Shown piece by piece: positions 3,582 through 23,896 of a stretch of 50,841 nt of DNA. Source of the stretch: a virus; IMG/VR virus record IMGVR_UViG_3300046782_000421, positions 1-50,841 of that record. The stretch is one strand, 5' to 3'. A program made the translations under genes and the position numbers. Numbering within the stretch: position 1 is the stretch's first letter; every line of letters begins with the position of its first letter. The notes under the pieces are model-generated. The model saw only the letters and a program-made list of their open reading frames with translations, was not told where the DNA came from and ran no database searches.

Positions 3582-5875
3582 GCCCCCTCCAGGATTTTGA
3601 TGCGGGCGTCCTGGTCTTCGATGCGCGCCATTGCCTCTTGCAGCGTCTTGGTCAACGCCGCGATCACTGTCCACGGGTTGGGCGTCTGAATGTGATTAGG
3701 GATGTCCTTGACGCCGCTCGCTGCATCTTCGATCAGCACCGCCTGAAGCTCGTGCGCAAGAAAGCCCCAGCGTTCCTTTTCATCGCCTATGACCAGCGGC
3801 ACGGCCTCGTCCACCGTGTTCCTGAAACCTTCTGGCGAGAAATCCTTGAGGCTGTATTTGATCGGGTTCAGGTTCTTGACGCGGTCCCACACCGACATCA
3901 GCGGCGCGACGTTCTCCTTGACGCGGTAGTCGGAAATATATTGGACGTAGCCGACGAAGGTGCCGCCGACATACTGGTTCATGTGGGCGCCATCCCAGAA
4001 CTGGCACACATTCTGTCCAGCCGCGCCGCCTGATCCTTGACGACCGACGATGCCTTGAGCGCCATCAACCGAGCCAGAGGCCCCCATGTTTCCAGCGCAA
4101 TTAACATTTCCAGCCGAATACAGATAAGTTCCCTGAACAGTCTGCCCGTTCACAGTTCCAGATGAAGTTACGTAAGCTCCCGAAACTGTGCTGGTTGCCG
4201 TAACATTTCCGCCAGTGATGGTGCCAGCGGCATTTACGTTATTAGCACACTGAACAGTTTGAGCAGTGAGGTATATGGCGTTTAGCGGAACTTCCACCGT
4301 GTAGCCAGAATCAACGCCACGAATGTGAAAATCACGGTACTGACCGCCATTGAATGACGCATCAGACAGCGTAAGCGTATTTGGTTGAACACCAGTGACC
4401 CACCTGTAATCGCTGCTGTTAGAATTAATCGTACCGCAATTCAGAGCGTTAATATTTGACGCCCCATTTACGCTAAAATTTCCACTTACGCCCGTAGTGG
4501 CGCCAATCAGACTAAGAGCGCCAGCACCCGCCGACGCCGTGCCTCCAGCGGATATGATGCGGCAATCATAATCAGTGCTGCTCGCACCGGAGTGAAAGTC
4601 GATGAAAGCCGCCGCATTCTGCCCCGGCCTGCCGAGTTCTATGGAATCGCCGGCGATAGCCGTACCTGTGCCAACCCTAAATCCAGTAGCGTAAACTTGC
4701 TGTGAGAATGTAGCGACGCCGCTGGAACGACTGATGGCGAGTGAGGTGTCGAGGTATGCCCCGGCATCGTTGAAACGGTATAGGCCAAAATCAGATCCGA
4801 CGTTGCTGCCGCTTTCGGCGGCGCTGTCGCCAACCGTCACTTGCCAGCGCGCCTTGCCGTTCATAGCCCCGTATAACGCGCACACGCTTCCACTAGCTGG
4901 CTTATTCAACCACACATTGGCGTTCGCGCCGCTTGCCGAGAGTTGCCCGCCGTTGCTGTAGACATTCCCACCTAGCGTAAGATTGTGAACCAGCGTCGTG
5001 TCGCCATTGGAGCGAGTGATGCTGATCGGGTTGTCCACCCACGCGCCCGCATCGGTGAAGCGAGCAAGAGAAAAATTAGATCCTGCGTTGCTGCCGCTTT
5101 CCGCCACATTGTCGCCAAGGCTCAATTGCCAGCGCAGGGCGCCGCCAGTCTCGGCATAGATGGCGCTGGTGTTTCCCACTGTTTTATTGAGGGTTACGCT
5201 CGCTCCCGTGCCAGATCCAACTCCAGTCACGGTGACATCGGTGATGTGGCTGACGCCGGTTGAACCAGTCGTGCCGAGCGGAACGCCCGTGCCGTTCGTG
5301 GATATGCCGCCGAAAGCGCCTGCATTGTTATACTGAAGCTGGCCGTTGAGGCCGCCGGGGGTCGTGACTGTTCCCCCGCCGCCAGTGCCTGGAGGAATCG
5401 CCCAAGTCTGATCCGCGCACAAGAATTTGGTCGATCCGCCGCCTGACGCCGGAACAATGCCCGCGACAGTGCTGCTGAACTGGGGGAGCGTCGTCGCCGT
5501 GGCGTAGGGGCCGAAATTCACGCCATTGGTCTTGGTGATCGTGATGGCGCCGGTCGAGGCGACCAGAGTGCCATCGCCGCTCATCGTGAAGCCGGCGAAG
5601 CCGCCCGCGCCGTTGTTGTACTGGATCTGATTGGCGGCGCCGCCAGGATTGCCGGCAGTGCCTGGCGGGCCTTGCGGACCTGGAACCGTGCTGGCTGGCC
5701 CAGGAGGGCCGACAGGCCCAGGAGGCCCAGGCGGGCCTTCTTCTCCCACCGCAGCCAGTTGCGCCATCTGCTTGGTGGTGGCGCGCACCGAAACGCCGGC
5801 CTGCACGATTTCGAGCGATTCGTCGCCTGACAGCGCAACGGCGACGGGGAGATTGGGGATCTGGATGTTTGCCAT
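3578..5875 (-). CDS. Tail fibre with C-terminal S74 intramolecular chaperone (765 aa)
   Basis: Layout: shared N-terminal module (MANIQIPNLPVAVALSG), a collagen-like Gly-Pro stretch at about 50-75, beta-rich repeats including two ESGSN-containing modules, and a C-terminal peptidase S74 / endosialidase chaperone domain from about residue 640. In that domain I see SDYRVKENV (Ser648 and Lys653, the conserved Ser/Lys pair of the family), then RWGFLAHELQ and a terminal coiled coil. In characterised members the chaperone trimerises the fibre and then cuts itself off at the conserved Ser; here that is inferred. The ATG at 5875 overlaps the upstream stop by one base. Confidence 0.9.
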   Translation of the reverse strand: MANIQIPNLPVAVALSGDESLEIVQAGVSVRATTKQMAQLAAVGEEGPPGPPGPVGPPGPASTVPGPQGPPGTAGNPGGAANQIQYNNGAGGFAGFTMSGDGTLVASTGAITITKTNGVNFGPYATATTLPQFSSTVAGIVPASGGGSTKFLCADQTWAIPPGTGGGGTVTTPGGLNGQLQYNNAGAFGGISTNGTGVPLGTTGSTGVSHITDVTVTGVGSGTGASVTLNKTVGNTSAIYAETGGALRWQLSLGDNVAESGSNAGSNFSLARFTDAGAWVDNPISITRSNGDTTLVHNLTLGGNVYSNGGQLSASGANANVWLNKPASGSVCALYGAMNGKARWQVTVGDSAAESGSNVGSDFGLYRFNDAGAYLDTSLAISRSSGVATFSQQVYATGFRVGTGTAIAGDSIELGRPGQNAAAFIDFHSGASSTDYDCRIISAGGTASAGAGALSLIGATTGVSGNFSVNGASNINALNCGTINSNSSDYRWVTGVQPNTLTLSDASFNGGQYRDFHIRGVDSGYTVEVPLNAIYLTAQTVQCANNVNAAGTITGGNVTATSTVSGAYVTSSGTVNGQTVQGTYLYSAGNVNCAGNMGASGSVDGAQGIVGRQGSGGAAGQNVCQFWDGAHMNQYVGGTFVGYVQYISDYRVKENVAPLMSVWDRVKNLNPIKYSLKDFSPEGFRNTVDEAVPLVIGDEKERWGFLAHELQAVLIEDAASGVKDIPNHIQTPNPWTVIAALTKTLQEAMARIEDQDARIKILEGA

Positions 5876-8938: not shown

Positions 8939-9853
8939 TTACGAGGTCGGGAAGTTGCCGTAGACTGCTCGCCAGTTGTAGTAACCGAACGAATACCGCT
9001 CGTAACCTTTCACGAGCAGGTTATCGGTCACAAAATCGACTTGCATATCCGTTTCGAACTTTATTCTTTCCATGAAGGAAAGACCATCGATATTTGTGAG
9101 AAGGAACCAGGCGAAGGGCGAGGTCAAGAAGTCATTGACCATGAAGCTTTCAGACAGTCCACCCGAAGTCGAGAGGATGGCATTGACGTCGTTGTCTGCC
9201 GTGCCTGGCCGCAATTCTGTCTTGAGAAGACGAATTGCTACCGGTTCCAATTGCGGCGGGATGATAAGCTTCCGCGCGCGAGCGAAAACTTTCAAACCCG
9301 CCTGGTCCTTGAAGTTGGTCCGGACGCCGATCATGGCGTTGAGCAGGGTCGATTCACCGAGATCGACTTGCACCGCCGGCGTGTTGCCGACGAGGCCGCT
9401 GTCGATGGGATGATCGACCGCGCAGAGCGCCTTGCCGTCGCCGCCGATTGTCTGATTATAGGCCTGGGCCGTATTCAGGACGTTGGCGCCGTAGATTTCC
9501 TTCGTTTGCTGGAAGGATTCGATCAGGCCGAGGTTGGAGGGATGGAACTGGGTCTTGTAGAGGTTGTCGTCGATGGCCTTGCGGGTCATCGCATATCCCA
9601 GGCCAATCTCGACGTGCTCCTGGTTGTAGACGTAACGCTCGCCGGCGCCGTTGTCGAACTGGGTCTGCCCGCCTTCAGTCTTGAGGGCGGCGAGGCCCAG
9701 GTAGCGCATCTCAGCCGTGCGCTCCAGCGCCATCTTTGAGTTGTGCTTGGTAAAGATCTTGTCGTACTGAGACGGGATCATCTCGTACTTGCCCTCGATC
9801 CCACGGAGGCCGGGGAGCAGAAGGTCTTTGATGGCGCTAAGATTGACGGCCAT
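8939..9853 (-). CDS. Major capsid protein (304 aa)
   Basis: The length, the position after the scaffold genes, and the sequence fit a Mu/HK97-fold head protein. There is an N-terminal helix (AIKDLLLPGLRGIEGKYEMI), a segment like the E-loop region (RYVYNQEHVEIGLGYAMTRKAIDDNLY), ALCAVDHPI, and a beta-hinge/A-domain run (GLKVFARARKLIIPPQLEPV, then PFAWFLLTNIDGLSFMERI) ending YGYYNWRAVYGN-like. It forms the icosahedral shell. Start ATG at 9853 follows AAAGGAGTAACCC. No separate protease gene is visible nearby, which fits scaffold-driven assembly. Confidence 0.85.
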   Translation of the reverse strand: MAVNLSAIKDLLLPGLRGIEGKYEMIPSQYDKIFTKHNSKMALERTAEMRYLGLAALKTEGGQTQFDNGAGERYVYNQEHVEIGLGYAMTRKAIDDNLYKTQFHPSNLGLIESFQQTKEIYGANVLNTAQAYNQTIGGDGKALCAVDHPIDSGLVGNTPAVQVDLGESTLLNAMIGVRTNFKDQAGLKVFARARKLIIPPQLEPVAIRLLKTELRPGTADNDVNAILSTSGGLSESFMVNDFLTSPFAWFLLTNIDGLSFMERIKFETDMQVDFVTDNLLVKGYERYSFGYYNWRAVYGNFPTS

Positions 9854-15420: not shown

Positions 15421-17637
15421 TTACCGGGGCCGTGTCGCGGCCAATGCTTTGTCGATCATGCCGCCGCAGGCATAACCTGGCGGCAGGATCAGCCCCGACT
15501 GCCGGGGTGCTTGCGGCGCAGGTGCTCCGGGAGGTCCATTTCCTGTTCCGCCGATAATTCCTTGGGGGGCTGGCCCGCGTGATCCAGGGCCAGGTACGAG
15601 TCCCGGTCCACTGGCACCCCGAACCGGTGCATCAGGCGTTCCAGAGGTGTCGTGCCACTCCGGTGGCCGGATGCCCCCCGCGAAGTCGTGGATTTCTTTG
15701 CGGACATCGTCGATTCCCTTCTTTCCGTTCTTGTAGTCGTTCCAGATGCTGTCGATATGGGCGTTGTTTTTATCAGTTTTGAAGGTGTCGGGGAACAATC
15801 CTCTGATCGCCTCCCACGTAATCGATTGCATTTCGCGCGGCAGTATACCGCGCTCTTTGGCGGCTTGGCGATAGGCGTCGGCGTAGAGCGGATAGGTTCC
15901 GTTCACGCCGGTGGCGTTGGAGCCGCCGGCGCCGGGAACGCCCTTGCCGGCGTAGTTGCTGAAATTGTGCGCCACCTCAAGCGAATTGCCCGACAGCGCG
16001 CGCAGCAGGCCGGCGGCGACCGCATGGGTGTCGATGGTGACGTCGCCGTGCTGGGAGTTGGGATCGAGGATGTTATTGTAGAAATTGCGAACCTTGTGGC
16101 GCTCGCCCATCAGGCGGTTCATGAAGGTCGGATCGCCATTGCTCTCGATGGCCTGCACCGCCTTGCCGATTTCGCCCAGCGAACCCCAGCCCGCCCTCGA
16201 TGGCGATCCGTCGGCGTTCCGGGCGACCTCGCCAAAATGACCTTCCGGCGTGGCGATCTTGTAGCCGGGATCGCCGTGGGTCTGATCGTGCATCCGGATC
16301 CACAGCGCCTTCATGACCGCGCGCTCGTCGCCGGGAATGTGCTTCATGTCGTCGATGTCGCCCAGCGACTTGCCCCTGATCGCCTGGAAGATTGGCTCGT
16401 TCTTCTCGGTGGCCAGCTTGTCCAGGCCGCGATAGGTGCCCTCCATTTCAGGCGAAAAGGTTTCACCATGATATGCGTTATTGCCGCGCCCCTTCATCGC
16501 ATGCAGGACGCGCTCGGCCAGCGACACGTTCTGAAACCAGTCCTTCTGCGGCGACAGCGCGGCCAGCGCGCCGGCGGCGGACGCCTCCGAGACGCCGTAT
16601 TTTTGCGCCCACTCCTTGGCCAGCTTGTTGGCGCCGTCGTACCACAATTTGGACCGCTGCCGGGTTTCGTTGGGCACCTGATCGTGCAGCCACAGCAGGT
16701 TGTCCTTGACGTGATTGATGAAATGCTCGGCCATATCCGGGTTCGACAGCTTCGCCGCCCTTTTCGAAACATTCGGGTAGTGCCGCAGGATATCGACGTT
16801 CTTGTCGAACAGCGCCGGCGTCGCCCGCAACGCAGCCATGTTGACGGTGCGCGGCCCTGGCCCCAGATCGAGCGGCTTGGCCCCGGTCGCCAGCCGGGTG
16901 TCGATGCGGGCCGGGTGATCGCCCGGCATGATGATCTGGGGAATCGGCGCCAGCGCAGCGCCGCCCTTGGCCATCGGCGCCCCGCCGCCGACGACATGCG
17001 GCAGCTTGTCATAAAGGCTCTTGGCCGTCAGGAGCGCAGAGTGGATCGCCTTACCGCCTCTCGATGCCATTAGTTCCGCGCTCCCTGCTTGCTGGGGGTC
17101 GAATTGTGCAGTCCTGGCCCGGATATTCGATGGGTCGAACATCACCACTGCGGGGCTTTTGTTTGAAATGCTCGCGCTGCGGCCTCCAGGCTGCAATGAT
17201 CCGTATCGAGCATCGTATTTGACGCCGTCGTAGCCGTGTTCCTGGATGACGCGCTTGGCCTTTTGCGGGCTGACGGCGTCGATATGACCCTGAAGCGGCG
17301 GGGCGAATCGACGCCCCTGCTCATCAGAGTTCCAGTATGGCTTGCGGCCTGTTCCCTTCAGCAGCTTATCGAGAATGGCGTGATGCTCGCCGCCTTCGGG
17401 GATAAGCTGGGTGGCGTCGAGAATATTGCCGCGCACATGAACTGGCGTGACGTTGCCGCCAGGCCCTTCGGCGTAATGGGAGGCAAAATCCGGATTTTGC
17501 GCAAGGTGAACGCCTTCCAGGCCCATTTGCTCGCTGCGCGGAGCGCGCTTGGCGGCGAAAGCCGGCAGATCCTTAGTTGAGCCGTGAAACCACGTCTGCG
17601 ACGGATCGAAGCCAAGGGCTTTCGCGCGCTCGTTCAT
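15421..17637 (-). CDS. ADP-ribosyltransferase-like / DUF7178-like fusion protein (738 aa)
   Basis: Residues about 14-175 look like an ART fold: TWFHGSTKDLPAF (H18), GVHLAQNPDFASHYA (Tyr55), HVRGNILDATQ, GYDGVKYD (135-142) and VVMFDPSNIRA (164-174), the order seen in phage polyvalent-type ART domains. Residues about 285-540 carry the phage motif AALSPQKDWFQNV (359-371) after LWYDGANKLAKEWA, as in the DUF7178 type. The C-terminus is Gly/Pro-rich. The ATG at 17637 overlaps the portal stop (ATGA). Position beside the portal suggests a virion-carried protein that may act on the host after injection. Catalysis is unproven. Confidence 0.65.
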   Translation of the reverse strand: MNERAKALGFDPSQTWFHGSTKDLPAFAAKRAPRSEQMGLEGVHLAQNPDFASHYAEGPGGNVTPVHVRGNILDATQLIPEGGEHHAILDKLLKGTGRKPYWNSDEQGRRFAPPLQGHIDAVSPQKAKRVIQEHGYDGVKYDARYGSLQPGGRSASISNKSPAVVMFDPSNIRARTAQFDPQQAGSAELMASRGGKAIHSALLTAKSLYDKLPHVVGGGAPMAKGGAALAPIPQIIMPGDHPARIDTRLATGAKPLDLGPGPRTVNMAALRATPALFDKNVDILRHYPNVSKRAAKLSNPDMAEHFINHVKDNLLWLHDQVPNETRQRSKLWYDGANKLAKEWAQKYGVSEASAAGALAALSPQKDWFQNVSLAERVLHAMKGRGNNAYHGETFSPEMEGTYRGLDKLATEKNEPIFQAIRGKSLGDIDDMKHIPGDERAVMKALWIRMHDQTHGDPGYKIATPEGHFGEVARNADGSPSRAGWGSLGEIGKAVQAIESNGDPTFMNRLMGERHKVRNFYNNILDPNSQHGDVTIDTHAVAAGLLRALSGNSLEVAHNFSNYAGKGVPGAGGSNATGVNGTYPLYADAYRQAAKERGILPREMQSITWEAIRGLFPDTFKTDKNNAHIDSIWNDYKNGKKGIDDVRKEIHDFAGGIRPPEWHDTSGTPDAPVRGASGPGLVPGPGSRGPAPQGIIGGTGNGPPGAPAPQAPRQSGLILPPGYACGGMIDKALAATRPR

Positions 17638-20168
17638 TTCTTGGCCTTTGGCTTGGCGGCTGCAGGCTTGGGTTTCGGTTTGGCTTTAGCGACCGCGATA
17701 GCCGCCGCTTTCTTCACGCCCTCCAATTCCTTCTCATGCGCGTGGGTCTTTTCGGTGATCGCGTGATCGTGCTCCTGCTCGCGGCTCAGTATGGTGTGAT
17801 CGTGATGGATCTCGGCGGCGGTGCGCTGGTCTTCGGCACGGGTGTCCATGACCTGCTTGGCCATATCGACGGCGCTCTGCCTCGCCTTGAGGCGCTGCTC
17901 GTCGTCGTGGTGCGAATCCTTCATCGACAGTTCGCCCAGCTTCAATTGGATTTCCTTGGCCCGCGTCTGGGCGTTCAGCAGGTCGGCCTGGGACTTGGCC
18001 TGCATGACGGATTGGTGAGTGTCGGCCTGCTGCGCATGCGCGTTGGCCTTGATGCGCTCCGATTCGGCGCGGTGCTGATCGACCGGCGTGTCCTGCTGGA
18101 TCTGGCCGGTTTCGTCCATGCCCATGGTCTGGGCTTCCGCCATCAGGTTCATGGCGCGGGCGCCGGCCTCCTTGGCCCGCGCCTGGGCGGTGACCATCGC
18201 CGCCTGCGAGGTGAGGGTCTTCGCCGCCGTCTCAGCCTGCTGCTGGATGAGTTGCGGGGGAGGCGCGGCCTGGGCGCTCGGCGGCGCCATGAATTGCTGC
18301 GGATTGTTCCAGCCCAGCGCCTGCAGCGCCGCCGTATCGATGGCGATGGGGTCGTAGAGACTGGGGTTTTGCTGCTGCAACTGCTTGAGCGCCATGATCT
18401 TCATCACGCGCTGGCCATGGCTCGACGTATTCGGATCGGCCTGCGGGGTCAGGTCGGCCTGATCGAGCGCGGCGCGGAAGTTCTGCTCGTCCCACGGCGC
18501 GGACGGCTTCTTGTTGCGCTGCCAGAACGCCTTGGGGTTCTCCTTGAAGCAGCGTATCAGCAGGCGAAATTCCTGCGATTGCGCCGAGTGCATGCGCTTG
18601 TGGACGTTGTTCAGCACCTTCTGGGCCTGCTCGATCATCGCCAGGATGGTGCCGACGGGGATTTCGGCCTTGCCTTCGTTGGCCGGCAGTTCGGCGGTGC
18701 CGCCGCTGCGCTGGCCGGTCTGCACCATGTTATCGACCAGGGCCATCAGAGCTTGAGACGGCGGCTGGTAAGGAAGTGGCATAATCGCCTGATTGATGGG
18801 AAGACCGCCCGTCTTGACGAGGACGCCGCCGCCCGGCGGTACGCGGAAGATATTCGTGTTCTGTCTGGCTCCCGTATCAGCCATGAGAAAGCCGGGAAAG
18901 TTGTTAAACATTCCAGCGTCCAGCAACTCGCGCCAAGCAGCAGTAACAGCGTTGGTGGTATTGCCCAATATATGAAGGAGTCCGATATCGTAGAAGCCGA
19001 GGCCCGGTACGTAGGTATATTTGACGAATGTCTCTCTAGCTTCAGGAAGCTCCTTCGTGTCCTCATCGTAGTTTCTGACGACCGAGAGGATTTTGCGGCT
19101 GGAGAGGTCGATGGTGACCCGGTACGGGATCTCAAGGCCCGAAATCTTGCCTTTGTACTTGTGCTCGTAGCCTTTGAGATCGAGTTCGCAATAGCACTCG
19201 TAGATCTCGCGGTCACGGTCGTCGGGCCTCGTGGTGTTGGTCTGGATCCCTTGCTGGTTTTTAGCCGCCTCCTGCGCAGCGTCGAGCGTCTGCGGCTTGG
19301 GCGTATCGAGGTCGATGTCGCGATAGGCGCCGATTATCTGCATGCGCCTGACCGTCGAGGGCCGCATCATAGATCGATGGGTAACACGCTTGGCGTTGGC
19401 GAGGTCGGTGGCGGCGTCGTTGACGATGAGGTCGTTGGCGTCAACCGATTCAGAAACTGGCCGATTACGCAGCGGGCAGTTGTACACTTTCTTGAATGCC
19501 GTGCCGCCAAAGCCCAGCAGAAGGAACATCTTGTCGGTGTCGGGATAGTATTCGGTCGCAGTGACAGTGAGATAATGATTGAGGTCTTTTTCAAGGGCGG
19601 TCGCCAGTGCGTCACGAGGGAGATTGGAGTTGCTGCCGTCATCGCGGATCTTGATCGGCCCGTCGGTGGGCAGCATTTCGGAGCGGCAGTTGGCTTGAAA
19701 GCGGAGCACCGCCTCCTGCAGCAGCGGATGCCGCACTTTTGACATGCCGTCCACCGGGGCGCCGTCCGCCGCCGACTGCAAATTGGGGATCTCGATCTTG
19801 AGGCCGAGCAGCTTGATGCCCTGGGCGCGCTCTTCGATCCAGTCGTTGCGGCTGGTCAGATCCTCGTCGATCCCGCGCAGCAAATCGTCGGCAATGCCGC
19901 TCAGATCGTCTTCCGGAAGCTTTTCGGCCAGGTTGGCGAACCAGCCTGTGTTCTGCTCTGGCTTATCGACCAGCGATTTGCCATCAAGCGAGACAGTGAC
20001 GCTGCCGTCGGCATGCTCGATCTTGATGACAGCGCCGGCGTCGTCCATTTCGGGGACGCCGGGAGGCTCGTGAACGTCATGCTGGATGGAGACGCCCGGA
20101 GAAATGGCCGGCGGGGCGCCGCCATTGGTCTGGCGGATGTTCAGGGGCAAGCCCGGCACCAATGGCAT
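17634..20168 (-). CDS. Portal protein, P22-like (844 aa)
   Basis: A large portal with the usual order: acidic N-terminus, core (GIDEDLTSRNDWIEERAQG, EMLPTDGPIKI, YYPDTDKMFLLLGFGGTAFK, FVKYTYVPGLGFYDIGLLHI, PANEGKAEIPVGTILAMIEQ) and a ~200-residue Gln/Ala/Lys-rich helical C-terminus resembling the barrel of P22-type portals. It forms the dodecameric channel for DNA entry and exit and docks the terminase. Start ATG at 20168 with AGAGGA upstream. It lies downstream of terminase in the same operon, separated by about 2 kb of small genes. Confidence 0.85.
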   Translation of the reverse strand: MPLVPGLPLNIRQTNGGAPPAISPGVSIQHDVHEPPGVPEMDDAGAVIKIEHADGSVTVSLDGKSLVDKPEQNTGWFANLAEKLPEDDLSGIADDLLRGIDEDLTSRNDWIEERAQGIKLLGLKIEIPNLQSAADGAPVDGMSKVRHPLLQEAVLRFQANCRSEMLPTDGPIKIRDDGSNSNLPRDALATALEKDLNHYLTVTATEYYPDTDKMFLLLGFGGTAFKKVYNCPLRNRPVSESVDANDLIVNDAATDLANAKRVTHRSMMRPSTVRRMQIIGAYRDIDLDTPKPQTLDAAQEAAKNQQGIQTNTTRPDDRDREIYECYCELDLKGYEHKYKGKISGLEIPYRVTIDLSSRKILSVVRNYDEDTKELPEARETFVKYTYVPGLGFYDIGLLHILGNTTNAVTAAWRELLDAGMFNNFPGFLMADTGARQNTNIFRVPPGGGVLVKTGGLPINQAIMPLPYQPPSQALMALVDNMVQTGQRSGGTAELPANEGKAEIPVGTILAMIEQAQKVLNNVHKRMHSAQSQEFRLLIRCFKENPKAFWQRNKKPSAPWDEQNFRAALDQADLTPQADPNTSSHGQRVMKIMALKQLQQQNPSLYDPIAIDTAALQALGWNNPQQFMAPPSAQAAPPPQLIQQQAETAAKTLTSQAAMVTAQARAKEAGARAMNLMAEAQTMGMDETGQIQQDTPVDQHRAESERIKANAHAQQADTHQSVMQAKSQADLLNAQTRAKEIQLKLGELSMKDSHHDDEQRLKARQSAVDMAKQVMDTRAEDQRTAAEIHHDHTILSREQEHDHAITEKTHAHEKELEGVKKAAAIAVAKAKPKPKPAAAKPKAKK

Positions 20169-20212: not shown

Positions 20213-20428
20213 TCAAATATCGCCAATGTCGGGCATCGGCGTCTTGTCATGGGCCTTTTGGAACCGTTTCATGCCCTCGCGGGCCGCTTCATCCTCATCG
20301 TTGGCGATGATGGTGTATTCGGCCTTGGCCGGCGGATCGCCGCCCTCGACATGGACGTCAAACAGGTGTGAGGGTCGCCCGCCAGGCAGCGGGTGATTAT
20401 CGACAGTGGCCTTCATCATGAAACTCAT
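20213..20428 (-). CDS. Small phage protein (71 aa), unknown
   Basis: Starts at ATG 20428 (MSFMMKATVDNHPLPGG) with GAGGATTAC upstream; other ATGs follow within five codons. The middle reads FDVHVEGGDPPAKAEYTIIA, suggesting a small beta-alpha domain. Its 5' end overlaps the 47-residue membrane ORF by 32 bases in another frame. Not recognised. Confidence 0.55.
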   Translation of the reverse strand: MSFMMKATVDNHPLPGGRPSHLFDVHVEGGDPPAKAEYTIIANDEDEAAREGMKRFQKAHDKTPMPDIGDI

Positions 20429-20540
20429 TTTCGTAATCCTCGAAATGAGCGGCGCGCTCGTCGCGCCGCCCCTTGTTGTAGGAGAGGCGGCTGACAAGCA
20501 GCAGGATGAAAACCGAAATGGCGATATCGAGCGGCGTCAT
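20397..20540 (-). CDS. Membrane micropeptide (47 aa)
   Basis: A 48-codon frame whose ATG (20540) overlaps the stop of the upstream Gp49-like gene (ATGA). Residues 4-19 are hydrophobic (LDIAISVFILLLVSRL), followed by a charged tail (NKGRRDERAAHFEDYENE). This gives a single membrane helix with a cytoplasmic tail. The coupling and composition support translation. Function unknown. Confidence 0.5.
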   Translation of the reverse strand: MTPLDIAISVFILLLVSRLSYNKGRRDERAAHFEDYENEFHDEGHCR

Positions 20541-20995
20541 AGCCCCTTCAGTTCGTTGCGGAGGACGTAGCCCTCCAGCGGCCAGATCTTGCGGCGGGCG
20601 TCGTCGAAGGAGATCCGCCTGGCGATGGTTTCGTCAAAAGTGAGCGGAGAAGAGCAGCCGGCCTCGCCAATGACATGGTAGCCATTGGTCAGTTCGATGG
20701 CGCAGATCATGACGGTGGAGTCGGGAAATTGATAGTATTTCACCCGCACGATGCGCTTATCGATGATTTCGGGCGTAATTCGGGGTATGGTCTGCTCTTC
20801 GGCTGCTCTGCTCATGGTTTGTTCCTTGCCTTCGTCAAGCCAGATCCACTTGTTGGTGGCTGCGTGGTCATAGTGGTATTCGCCGGCGTGGCCGTCGTTG
20901 TTCGACGCCAGCAGCACTTTCACGTCCTTGTCCCAGGTCAGGCCCCGGTCATTCAGGGGACCGCCGACGCAAACGCCATTGAGGATTTTGCTCAT
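20537..20995 (-). CDS. N4 Gp49 / Sf6 gp66-like phage protein (152 aa)
   Basis: Residues ~75-150 fit the Phage_gp49_66 pattern: RVKYYQFPDSTVMICAIELT, NGYHVIGEAGC, TFDETIARRISFDDARRKIW, LEGYVLRNEL. The family is common in phages and has no settled function. The first ~55 residues (NGVCVGGPLNDRGLTWDKDV, then NKWIWLDEGK) resemble the neighbouring 63-residue protein, suggesting a shared small domain. Confidence 0.7.
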   Translation of the reverse strand: MSKILNGVCVGGPLNDRGLTWDKDVKVLLASNNDGHAGEYHYDHAATNKWIWLDEGKEQTMSRAAEEQTIPRITPEIIDKRIVRVKYYQFPDSTVMICAIELTNGYHVIGEAGCSSPLTFDETIARRISFDDARRKIWPLEGYVLRNELKGL

Positions 20996-21183
20996 TTCTT
21001 GCCCTCGTGGTGTAGCTCGACCCAGTTCCAGTGTCCGGTCCCGTCATTGCAGTATTCATTGCCGTCGGGGGCGCAGACGAAGCGCGATCCCGCCGTCAAT
21101 GGCAGGCCTTTCCACGGGCCGTCGCGGCAGACGCCGGTCCATAGCTTGGTCGTCTTGATGGGTTCGGGCCTGAACGGGGTCAC
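20992..21183 (-). CDS. Small phage protein related to N-terminus of the Gp49-like neighbour (63 aa)
   Basis: The start is a GTG at 21183, supported by GGAGAG seven bases upstream and by overlap with the preceding stop (GTGA). The sequence (TGVCRDGPWKGLPL, GNEYCNDGTGHWNWVELHHE) lines up with residues 6-57 of the Gp49-like protein (NGVCVGGPLNDRGL, GEYHYDHAATNKWIWLDEG). Likely a small beta domain duplicated in this cluster. Function unknown. Confidence 0.6.
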   Translation of the reverse strand: MTPFRPEPIKTTKLWTGVCRDGPWKGLPLTAGSRFVCAPDGNEYCNDGTGHWNWVELHHEGKK

Positions 21184-21518
21184 GGCACAACTCTCCAATC
21201 CTGGGCCAGCATGTCGGATTGGCTCGCCAGCCAACCCATCAGGATTTCGCCGGTCGCCGTCTTCATGATGAAGCAGGGCAGGACGGTAACTCTCCCATCG
21301 GGCTGGGTTTTGGCGTAATCGCGGGCGACCTTCGACCAAAGCTGCTCGTGGTAGACTACGCGCGGTCCCTCCACGCCCGACAGGGCGATCCACATATCCT
21401 TGCCGTTCCAGCCCTCGCGCTGGACTTTGCAGCCGGCCCGCATTTGCAGGATGGCCGTGCCAAAATCCATGCTGTAGGGATTGATGGACGTCATACGGTC
21501 GTTCTCAACTACGGTCAT
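21180..21518 (-). CDS. DUF2829 protein, Tad2-like (candidate anti-Thoeris) (112 aa)
   Basis: Shows the DUF2829 signature: MDFGTAILQMRAGCKVQREG and WNGKDMWIAL near the N-terminus, then PCFIMKTATGEILMGWLASQ and SDMLAQDWRVV at the end. DUF2829 includes Tad2, which sequesters the cyclic-nucleotide signal of Thoeris defence; many members are untested. Start ATG at 21518 overlaps the previous stop (ATGA). It is followed by the 63-residue gene with a GTGA overlap. The family call is firm; anti-Thoeris activity is inferred. Confidence 0.8.
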   Translation of the reverse strand: MTVVENDRMTSINPYSMDFGTAILQMRAGCKVQREGWNGKDMWIALSGVEGPRVVYHEQLWSKVARDYAKTQPDGRVTVLPCFIMKTATGEILMGWLASQSDMLAQDWRVVP

Positions 21519-22102
21519 GGCGCAATGCTCCAGTCTCTGGCCAATACGTCAGCTTGGGAGATAGTCCAGATGGTCATTTCGCCGTTGGCCAGCGTCATGT
21601 AAAGACACGCCGGCGCGCCGTCGGGAAAGCGGGCCTCGACCCATCTGCCGCTCCACGCCTTGCGCTGAATGCGGTGGCCCTGCTCCAATTGGAGAAGCGC
21701 GGCGCCGAAATCCATGAAGCGGACCTGGTTGGGATGAATATTGGTCGCGGTGACGCCCTCATTGCCGCTGGCGATGTGAGTGAAGCCCTCGCCAAAGGCG
21801 GCGACGTGCTCAAGATCGGGCATTAAGAGAGGAGGAGCTTCCGCCAGCTTCCTTTGGAGGTCGCCGGTCGATGGCGACAGGTAAGAAGGAGGCCCGGCCA
21901 GCGGAATGCCCTGCATGCCGGGGTCTTGGGGGTCGAATACGTCGAAATCGCCGGGCCGGCGGTGCGATCCGGCCACGGAAGGGTGATGGTGGAGCACTTC
22001 AGCGCCCCCGGTGGGGTGCGTTTCGTCCAAAGCAGCCTGAATCGAGGGTTTGATGCGGCTCGACTTATGGACCTGGTGCTCATGTTCGGTCTTTTTAGTC
22101 AT
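21515..22102 (-). CDS. DUF2829 (Tad2-like) domain with disordered N-terminal extension (195 aa)
   Basis: Residues ~128-195 form a second, shorter DUF2829 copy: MDFGAALLQLEQGHRIQRKA, WSGRWVEARF, CLYMTLANGEMTIWTISQ, ADVLARDWSIA. The insert between the two conserved blocks is much shorter than in the adjacent copy. The first ~125 residues are polar, His/Pro/Gly-rich and probably disordered (HHHPSVAGSHRRPGDFDVFD). The ATG at 22102 overlaps the upstream stop (ATGA). Confidence 0.75.
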   Translation of the reverse strand: MTKKTEHEHQVHKSSRIKPSIQAALDETHPTGGAEVLHHHPSVAGSHRRPGDFDVFDPQDPGMQGIPLAGPPSYLSPSTGDLQRKLAEAPPLLMPDLEHVAAFGEGFTHIASGNEGVTATNIHPNQVRFMDFGAALLQLEQGHRIQRKAWSGRWVEARFPDGAPACLYMTLANGEMTIWTISQADVLARDWSIAP

Positions 22103-22245
22103 TTTTTGCTCTCGTGCATGTCGCGGTGGGGGTGTTTTTCGGTCTTTTCATCGTGTTTTTCGTGTTTTTCAGGGGTTTTTGGGGCTGGAATCGGCTTTTC
22201 CGGAGCCTTCTCCGTCACGGACGTGGGGTTATTGCGAAAAAACAT
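22099..22245 (-). CDS. Small highly charged Lys/His/Glu protein (48 aa)
   Basis: The ATG at 22245 has GGGAGAAAAG upstream, and the stop overlaps the next ATG (ATGA). The sequence is a run of Lys, Glu, His and Pro (EKAPEKPIPAPKTPEKHEK) and is probably disordered. The longer frame upstream overlaps the terminase and is not coding-like. Unknown function. Confidence 0.5.
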   Translation of the reverse strand: MFFRNNPTSVTEKAPEKPIPAPKTPEKHEKHDEKTEKHPHRDMHESKK

Positions 22246-22261: not shown

Positions 22262-23896
22262 TCAGCCTGGATAGAGCGGCTCCAGCGGCCTGGTGCGGCC
22301 ATACTGGACTTCCTCGTTCATTTCCGCCAACCTTTCGTCGGACCGGGTCAGCAATCCGCAGTCGCGCAGGTGGCGAATCGCCTGTGATGTGGTGTCGGTA
22401 AGATCGTCATGCAGCGCCTTGGGGAAGGAAGCCACTTGCCTGATCACCATTTCCGCCCATTCCTTGTCTGGAGCGTAGACCATGCCTTCCGCAAACAGCG
22501 GCTGAACACTGTACAGCCGAGCAAGTTTATCCTGGTTGCCTGGATTGATCAGGTGAACCGCCCATGGCTCATGTCCGTAAAGACGGCGCATCTCCTGCGC
22601 GACCGATATGCCGCTCGCCTTGGCCTCGACCAGCAGGCGGTCAACCTTCAACTTCTTGCAATGGAGGGCCACCTTGGCGACCAGGTCGGAAAGACTGAGG
22701 CGCTCGGTCCAGGCGTACATCAAAATGACGCGCGGCGCGGCGTCGAGGTGAGTGGAGGCGCCGCCTTCAGGCATTTCCTTCGGGTGACCGTAGCGATCCA
22801 CCAGCCTGGTGGCCTGGTTGCGGGTGTCGCCTGAAAACACCCCCCACACCGTCATGGCGCTGGGGTCGTTCTCCTGCTTCAGACCGTAGGCGGTGTCGAT
22901 GGAGGCGATAATAAAGTCGAGCGCCGGAAATTCCGGCCTGTCCCACAGGATCCAGTCGGCGTCCTTGATGACGCCGCCTCCTCGCGGGACTGGGGCCTGC
23001 TGCATTTGGCCGGCGGTGGCGAACGGCCCCATGATCCGCTCTTCGCGTTCGACCACGTCGAGGGGAAAACGGGTCGGGAAATAAAGCTCGCCGGGGATGG
23101 TGCGGGGGTCTTTGTAGCCGAGCATGGTGGGGTGGGCGCGGTCCGGATCGTAGCGCATCGGGATCATGATGTGATCGTAGCCGAGCTTCTTGTCGAGGAT
23201 CATTCCGGACAGATCGGCCTCGTGCAGCCGCTGCATGATCACCACGATGGCGCTCTTGCGCGGCGAATTGAGGCGGGTCGGCACCGATTCCCTGAACCAC
23301 AGGTTGACGCTCTCGCGGGTGCTGTCGCTGTTGGCGTTCTTGACGCTCAGAGCGTCGTCGATCAGGACGCGGTCGGCCCGGTGACCGGTATCCGCTCCCG
23401 CCGCGACCGCCCTGCGCCATCCGGAGCGGGTGTTTTCGAACACCGTCTTGGAGTTCTGGTCGCCGGTCAGTTCGACCAGGTCGCCCCAGTGCTTCTGATA
23501 CCAGGCGGTGGTGACCAGCCGGCGCATGCGAATGCTGTCGCGCTCGACCAGGTCGATGTTATGGGACGCGCAGAGATAGCGCATGTGGGGCATGGCGGCA
23601 GGCCCCCATTCCCAGGCCGGCCAAAACACATTGAGCAGCAGGGATTTCATGCCGCCGGGAGGAATGTTGATCAGGAGACGGTTGTAGGGCTTGCCATCGA
23701 CCTGGGCGCCGTCGGTGATCGCCTCCAAATGTTCACAGATGAACGGCAGGTGCCAGTTGTCGAGCATGGGCTGGCCCGGCTCGACCTCTTTCCAGGCCCG
23801 CTTGACGAACTCGTGCAGGGACCGCTCGCACATCTCCTTGTCCATGCGGTCGAGGACATCCTGCGGATTGACCTTTTGAAGATTGATGGACGTCAT
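22262..23896 (-). CDS. terL: Terminase large subunit (544 aa)
   Basis: Packaging motor and nuclease. ATPase: Walker A-like INIPPGGMKSLLL (K84), C-motif region, and Walker B RVLIDDAL (residues 176-183). C-terminal RNase H-like nuclease: IIASIDTAYG (first Asp, about 320), LLVEAKASG (about 412) and DDLTDTTSQ (about 498). The length is normal for the family. The ATG at 23896 overlaps the preceding stop (ATGA). Small terminase lies upstream with three short genes between, and portal follows about 2 kb downstream. Confidence 0.92.
   Translation of the reverse strand: MTSINLQKVNPQDVLDRMDKEMCERSLHEFVKRAWKEVEPGQPMLDNWHLPFICEHLEAITDGAQVDGKPYNRLLINIPPGGMKSLLLNVFWPAWEWGPAAMPHMRYLCASHNIDLVERDSIRMRRLVTTAWYQKHWGDLVELTGDQNSKTVFENTRSGWRRAVAAGADTGHRADRVLIDDALSVKNANSDSTRESVNLWFRESVPTRLNSPRKSAIVVIMQRLHEADLSGMILDKKLGYDHIMIPMRYDPDRAHPTMLGYKDPRTIPGELYFPTRFPLDVVEREERIMGPFATAGQMQQAPVPRGGGVIKDADWILWDRPEFPALDFIIASIDTAYGLKQENDPSAMTVWGVFSGDTRNQATRLVDRYGHPKEMPEGGASTHLDAAPRVILMYAWTERLSLSDLVAKVALHCKKLKVDRLLVEAKASGISVAQEMRRLYGHEPWAVHLINPGNQDKLARLYSVQPLFAEGMVYAPDKEWAEMVIRQVASFPKALHDDLTDTTSQAIRHLRDCGLLTRSDERLAEMNEEVQYGRTRPLEPLYPG

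Follow-up and report, generated by a model that had tools for sequence, protein, structure and literature searches.

We find that the interval between the terminase large subunit (TerL) and portal genes of a soil phage encodes two adjacent, unequal Tad2-like proteins together with a member of the Acb4 family. This interval probably represents a late-expressed cassette of nucleotide-signal sponges; the ligands, tetramers, timing and anti-defence activity that such a reading entails are putative. The window, i.e. the whole stretch of DNA analysed, is IMG/VR record IMGVR_UViG_3300046782_000421 (50,841 nt), and all genes of the locus lie on its minus strand:

22262-23896 (-): terminase large subunit (TerL), upstream border of the cassette (phrog_38, E 1.1e-77)
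22099-22245 (-): 48-aa ORF in the gap between TerL and P0002, charged and of low complexity, with a 4-bp overlap with P0002
21515-22102 (-): P0002, 195 aa, ATG start; mostly disordered 129-residue extension and short divergent Tad2-like domain (residues 130-193; PF11195, 50.4 bits)
21180-21518 (-): P0001, 112 aa, ATG start; canonical Tad2-like protein with WNGK and a long beta2-beta5 insertion (PF11195, 80.3 bits)
20992-21183 (-): GGP1, 63 aa, GTG start; small stand-alone GGP domain protein (home-made profile)
20537-20995 (-): 152-aa protein; Acb4-family domain fused C-terminal to a GGP domain (PF13876, 72.9 bits)
20397-20540 (-): 47-aa ORF with a hydrophobic N-terminus and a 4-bp overlap with the Acb4-family gene
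17634-20168 (-): portal, downstream border of the cassette (PF23899 SU10_portal, 63 bits; phrog_1216)

The 48-aa ORF starts 16 bases past TerL, and five 4-bp stop-start overlaps chain the six ORFs that follow TerL (48 aa, P0002, P0001, 63 aa, 152 aa and 47 aa). Both Tad2-like ORFs are intact and share one of these 4-bp overlaps. A relative of the 48-aa ORF precedes the Tad2 gene in locus L088, and counterparts of the 47-aa ORF are present in L087, L088 and L111, either as a separate ORF or as part of a longer one. Further on, the same strand encodes the major head protein (8939-9853), a tail spike and an adaptor of the SU10 type, while replication genes lie on the other side of the cassette. 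Because gene order places the interval between TerL and portal, its transcription is probably part of that of the late genes. Simple searches for promoters and terminators in the locus returned no more than shuffled sequence gives. The gene after the portal (15421-17637, minus strand) encodes a 738-aa protein with DUF7178 and a sub-threshold match to an ADP-ribosyltransferase 'polyvalent protein' (27.7 bits, cut-off 31.2). We also sought the host through TerL relatives in genomes; the best of these (60% identity) is in a MAG, and we name no host.

An earlier, sequence-only reading of this DNA had placed two adjacent DUF2829 genes at 21180-22102, between the terminase and the portal. Both parts of that claim hold: TerL (22262-23896) lies upstream and the portal (17634-20168) downstream, and the two proteins encoded at 21180-22102 exceed the curated PF11195.14 cut-off of 25 bits (Pfam), in which the WNGK motif plays no part. 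The match covers residues 17-111 of P0001 (80.3 bits, E 1.5e-22) and residues 130-193 of P0002 (50.4 bits, E 3.4e-13), so the HMM search that had been suggested returns both proteins as positive, and no further match was found when the whole record was searched with PF11195. The family call and the description of the copies as divergent are borne out by these scores and by the differences in the alignment.

The best PDB relatives of P0001 are 8wjd (SptTad2, 8.6e-14) and 8kbi (HgmTad2/AcrIIA7, 3.7e-13), with 9kzr third. The alignment shows a long insert in P0001 along with the WNGK motif, and from our reading of the alignments the extra residues are the beta2-beta5 insertion. A review, as far as its accessible part goes (PMC12043709), describes gcADPR pockets at the loops between protomers of the Tad2 homotetramer, each pocket shared by two protomers, and binding of cyclic dinucleotides at the long beta2-beta5 insertion. 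We read the same part of the text as placing WNGK in the beta1-beta2 loop, which forms one wall of the gcADPR pocket. Ligands differ within the family, MoTad2 binding His-ADPR and SPO1 Tad2 binding gcADPR (PMC13299392, accessible part). As a protein of the long-insert kind represented by HgmTad2 and SptTad2, P0001 would sequester a Thoeris ADP-ribose signal and possibly, via its insertion, cyclic dinucleotides as well.

P0002 is clearly different. Its Tad2 domain has 64 residues, compared with 95 in P0001, and the alignment shows WSGRW at the site of the WNGK loop and no long insertion, a feature that is likewise missing from the PF11195 members of IME346 and MalagasyRose. The landmarks listed in the sequence-only reading are thus present, with the exception that WNGK is confined to P0001. 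The P0002 sequence matches Tad2 chains in the PDB weakly (best E 5e-5). Its AlphaFold model has a mean pLDDT of 69.7 and a pTM of 0.41 overall; the core is well defined, with 10-residue block means of 89-96, and the block means of the 129-residue extension that precedes the domain are mostly 45-63, apart from one short helix at residues 79-88 (pLDDT 74-83). The shorter insert and the disordered extension of ~125 residues had therefore been described correctly. A Foldseek search with the P0002 model gives 22 matches at E <= 0.001, all of them Tad2/AcrIIA7 chains (TMt up to 0.80), with SPO1 Tad2 chains ranked first and ModTad2 and HgmTad2 among the later matches. P0002 is predicted to retain the SPO1-Tad2 fold.

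The sequence-only reading had overlooked the Acb4-family gene, which sits two genes downstream of P0001, as well as the evidence on how the pair originated. Its 152-aa product matches PF13876 'Phage_gp49_66' with 72.9 bits (cut-off 27). In the accessible part of Chang et al. (PMC11722364), PF13876 is the family of Acb4, a tetrameric cyclic-dinucleotide sponge; 3'3'-cGAMP was bound by 8/8 Acb4 homologs, cGG by none of them, and cAA only by homologs from phages of Gram-negative hosts. As a single phmmer query the 152-aa protein matched no Acb4 structure; a profile of ten relatives that includes it matches Acb4 (PDB 9e4w) with an E of 3.1e-7. Foldseek matches 1-13 of its predicted model are all chains of 9e4w (E 2.4e-4 to 2.9e-3), with an rmsd of 1.7 in five of them and an identity of ~16%. 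The ligand contacts of SPO1 Acb4, listed in section 7 of the accessible part of that paper, are K36, F48, E49, V56, Y57, F62, N63, I66, T70 and K81, which by our reading of the alignments correspond to T, Y, H, C, S, F, D, I, I and P in the window. Two of the ten are identical (F62 and I66) and one is conservative (F48 to Y); since the contacts mostly differ, ligand choice cannot be read from the sequence. The gene has a dN/dS of 0.06-0.24. In the proposed mechanism, the GGP-Acb4 fusion would sequester CBASS cyclic dinucleotides.

GGP is our own label for a small domain, defined by a home-made profile, that is common to the 63-aa protein and the N-terminus of the 152-aa protein. Its copies are:

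Window, 20831-20995 and 21007-21150 (-): GGP domains (home-made profile)
L092, 8687-9454: GGP domain (home-made profile)
L012, 4946-5086 and 5496-5651: GGP domains (home-made profile)

A locus can hold up to three copies, and the domain is fused to Acb4 in the window and L092 and to Tad2 in L012. Across the loci examined, the profile has no match outside the window's clade and L012, and it is absent from 74 Acb4 loci outside the clade. GGP1 has no Pfam or PHROG match at E <= 1, and the GGP model is of low confidence (residues 1-27 have pLDDT < 50).

To describe the neighbourhood of the two sponge families, we used the best 80 of at least 576 Tad2 loci, which were drawn by the C-terminal pattern of canonical copies, so that frequencies in this sample are not population values. 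The Acb4 profile matches 19 of these 80 loci. With the six loci of the window's clade removed, Acb4 is in reach (up to 8 kb on each side, less at contig ends) in 14 of the remaining 74; the two genes lie within 300 bp of each other in 13 of these 14 and on the same strand in all 14. Uniform placement would put ~6.5% within 300 bp (mean of 19 loci; binomial 5e-15). After clustering of this best-80 sample at 80% identity, 11/12 pairs outside the clade are within 300 bp. Seen from the other side, Tad2 is in reach in 4/74 Acb4 loci outside the clade and adjacent in two, and the contigs of these two (L287 and L318) already occur in the Tad2 sample, as L224 and L241. The pairing is thus not general for Acb4, and most sampled Acb4 genes have no Tad2 nearby. 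Among 385 alphaproteobacterial genomes, PF11195 occurs in two and PF13876 in two, with no overlap, a result that is uninformative on linkage. Within the window's clade, the order TerL-Tad2-GGP-GGP/Acb4-portal is kept as far as the contigs reach.

The surroundings of Tad2 were also read in 12 phage records, which were picked by hand and not drawn at random. PF13876 is present in five of the 12, beside Tad2 only in N4 and Acidovorax AP1 and far from it in ZX86, PaBG and SPO1L3; for SPO1, the surroundings of acb4 are drawn in a figure, according to its legend (PMC11722364, accessible part). Phage N4 (L199, 4381-5234) has gp48, an Acb4-family match, and gp49, a Tad2, side by side and adjoining the virion RNA polymerase gene. 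Packaging or head genes surround Tad2 in IME346 (TerL-Tad2-DUF1073), in SpaA1 (P7, between minor head and scaffold genes) and in phiAH14a (p64, between head morphogenesis and capsid genes), and in Kapi1 and MalagasyRose it is found a short way upstream of TerS. In MalagasyRose, a Mycobacterium phage (L118, 1-5919), the Tad2-like gene is flanked by an annotated tRNA-Pyl and by the terminase genes. Elsewhere Tad2 is found amid tail genes (Momine), after lysis genes (AP1), next to the virion RNA polymerase or to replication genes (N4, ZX86), amid metabolic and replication genes (PaBG) or small uncharacterised genes (SPO1L3), and in unannotated surroundings (45A6), and P60/P61 of SpaA1 are away from its head genes. 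Among the best 80 of at least 576 loci, on viral contigs outside the clade, Tad2 falls in the TerL-portal interval in L233 and L248 and follows the portal in L213, L216, L217, L229, L231 and L246, as judged with TerL and portal profiles that detect only relatives of the window's genes.

The sequence-only reading had called this location odd for anti-defence genes. We do not share that view: Tad2 has packaging or head genes around it in several unrelated phages, though not in others, and Thoeris is capsid-triggered in the systems studied, with major capsid proteins reported to activate the Thoeris proteins of staphylococci and streptococci (PMC12578639, Nature Microbiology, accessible part). 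Late expression of sponges would make sense because Thoeris senses the major capsid protein. The overlapping gene chain between TerL and portal would have the sponges made while the capsid protein, the Thoeris trigger, accumulates.

That the Tad2-like genes are instead packaging or virion parts, for instance portal or terminase accessories with no anti-defence role, appears very unlikely to us. Their fixed site between TerL and portal in the clade, the similar sites in some other phages and the long disordered extension of P0002 would fit such a role. Against it, the near-identical relatives by TerL (57%) L042, L045 and L047 have a TerL-portal gap of ~320 bp with no room for the cassette, and their Tad2 lies further downstream; packaging in these phages has no cassette between TerL and portal, which suggests that it works without one. 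PF11195 is also present in only five of 71 TerL-relative records, many of them fragments (70 from outside the nearest clade and L013 of the clade), and the 66 records lacking it include L013. The gap and this low count together identify the cassette as accessory. Furthermore, Tad2 of SPO1L3, PaBG, N4 and ZX86 is at a distance from packaging genes over the stretches that were read, and the neighbour in the window is of the Acb4 family. The same neighbour points to nucleotide signals and thereby argues against an action on CRISPR-Cas9, which would follow from the inclusion of AcrIIA7 in the family and which we judge highly improbable. The second- and third-best PDB relatives of P0001 (8kbi and 9kzr) were indeed deposited as a type II CRISPR inhibitor or AcrIIA7, but the chain sequence of 8kbi was also deposited as HgmTad2 with 1',2'-cADPR (8kbj).

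To trace the origin of the pair, we compared the 25 records found via P0001 or P0002: seven clade records with the pair, seven clade records with one gene, and 11 other phages with one each. L005, read by profile, is an additional pair-bearing record. One 138-kb viral contig counted with the pairs (G002, IMGVR_UViG_3300046559_000446; L004 and L006) has two related phage-like regions ~69 kb apart, with a Tad2 pair in one and a single Tad2 gene in the other; either two prophages or an assembly that joined two phages could explain this. The single genes of L088 (235 aa), L209, L208 and L092 encode an N-terminal extension followed by a canonical long-insert Tad2, and the extension starts with an (I/M)K(P/S)SIxxAL...HP-like motif. 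The start of P0002 is common to L088 (E 6e-36) and L209 (9e-17). In L111, the second, canonical copy has the same linker as P0002 (E 1e-21 across linker and domain), and the linker of the first copy is degraded. Since linker and extension are shared, the comparison favours a tandem duplication of an extended gene within the lineage, after which P0001 would have lost the extension and P0002 the insertion and NGK loop. A tree of the Tad2 domains does not place P0002, as the domain is too short: a grouping of P0001 with P0002 (p-AU 0.351) and one that unites P0002 and two short Tad2s from other phages (p-AU 0.275) are neither supported nor rejected.

Unequal pairs are not restricted to the clade. 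WNG is present in 78 of the best 80 domains (from at least 576 Tad2 loci). Among 50 canonical-Tad2 records picked by hand from these best 80, four have a second PF11195 domain, in each case a weaker one (42-52 bits), which lies within 330 bp of the canonical domain in three (L210, L228 and L267) and 43 kb away in the fourth. Phage SpaA1 has an adjacent pair as well, P60 (80 aa, 69.2 bits) and P61 (87 aa). The second copies of L210, L228, L267, SpaA1 (P60), the window (P0002), L087 and L111 all lack WNG. We also considered a duplication of whole genes for the two genes of L228; their BLASTP alignment covers only the Tad2 part plus some ten residues ahead of it, and so does not show such a duplication. 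In L012, a short WNG-less Tad2 follows a protein ending in a Tad2-like remnant. The latter protein (4488-4913, 141 aa) is rich in proline and alanine and lies directly before the GGP-Tad2 fusion; its remnant has no Pfam match.

Purifying selection acts on both Tad2 copies. In pairwise comparisons of 25-843 codons, dN/dS is 0.10-0.51 for P0001 and 0.15-0.35 over three lineages for the P0002 domain; the linker of P0002 is less constrained (0.45-0.62), and the N-terminus of P0002 has 0.30, with dS (1.25) close to saturation. TerL and portal have 0.08-0.17. The P0002 reading frame is unbroken in the window, L087 and L111 up to the contig ends.

Judging from sequence features, our first choice for P0002 is a division of labour with P0001, followed by a mixed assembly of the two. 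P0002 would be a duplicated Tad2-like copy that most likely binds a different ADP-ribose-type signal, or else a partner subunit of P0001; without insertion and NGK loop, it would form at most an altered ADP-ribose pocket. That the two proteins cover two signal types, as had been proposed, is plausible because only P0001 keeps the insertion and characterised Tad2s differ in their ligands. Given the missing WNG motif, binding by P0002 may also have been lost. It is quite unlikely, in our view, that P0002 is a decaying or neutral duplicate and that P0001 alone matters. Loss of the NGK loop and the insertion would agree with decay, as would the finding that one Tad2 gene suffices in seven of the 14 clade records, but the low dN/dS of the P0002 domain, the intact frame in all three records and the confidently predicted core (block means of 89-96) argue against it. 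As the fold is kept and selection is purifying, P0002 is likely still a functional binder or partner. A regulatory or architectural role in a mixed tetramer with P0001, with no separate sponge function, is unlikely. Canonical and NGK-less copies recur as pairs (window clade, L210, L228, L267 and SpaA1, with L012 as a possible degenerate variant), the two genes of the window have a 4-bp overlap, and pockets of the Tad2 homotetramer are shared between two protomers (PMC12043709, accessible part), all of which would suit a mixed tetramer. Nevertheless, separate sponges would also tend to lie side by side, and the NGK-less copy of SpaA1 is barely shorter than its neighbour (80 versus 87 aa); the pairs may differ in kind.

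If the sponge-cassette reading is true, sponges against two nucleotide alarms travel as one module inside the packaging operon, and the timing of counter-defence is tied to its trigger. Tad2 neighbourhoods of this type would then be a place to seek more sponges, with the GGP domain as the first candidate, and the recurrent unequal Tad2 pairs raise the question of whether several signals are met via duplication or via mixed assembly. A bolder generalisation, which we put forward with considerable doubt, is that phages have repeatedly evolved an asymmetric two-gene Tad2, in which a canonical subunit and a mostly short one without NGK form a mixed assembly that shifts the ligand range. The clade would have set this pair with Acb4 and GGP in a late operon, so that Thoeris and CBASS sponges appear together with the triggering capsid protein.

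The Tad2 and Acb4 families are each already known. What is new, as far as the open-access literature was searched, is that unequal Tad2 copies are paired, that such pairs recur, and that Tad2 and Acb4 are neighbours in a packaging operon. Compared with SPO1 Acb4 (9E4W), the window protein shares the family score, the profile match and the predicted fold of the C-terminal domain, but it has an N-terminal GGP domain, only two of ten contacts identical and one conservative, and a gene located two genes from Tad2. The Klebsiella phage IME346 (Jedunavirus) resembles the window in the place of its single PF11195 gene, which has TerL directly before it and the DUF1073 gene directly after it; its one canonical WNGK copy lacks the long insertion, however, and its record has no PF13876 match. 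Staphylococcus phage SpaA1 has an NGK-less PF11195 gene (P60) beside a canonical one (P61), but this pair is outside the TerL-portal interval, P60 is barely shorter, a third copy (P7) sits with the head genes, and the record has no PF13876 match. With the Tad2 proteins described so far (HgmTad2/AcrIIA7, SptTad2, SPO1 Tad2 and ModTad2), P0001 shares the family score, WNGK, the long insertion and the C-terminal GWLASQ-D-LA-DW, whereas the likeness of P0002 lies in its predicted fold and the C-terminal W-SQ-D-LA-DW. P0002 departs from them in having neither NGK nor the insertion and in carrying a disordered extension, and the locus as a whole is distinguished from known Tad2 by two unequal, adjacent copies that are co-linear with packaging genes and an Acb4-family gene.
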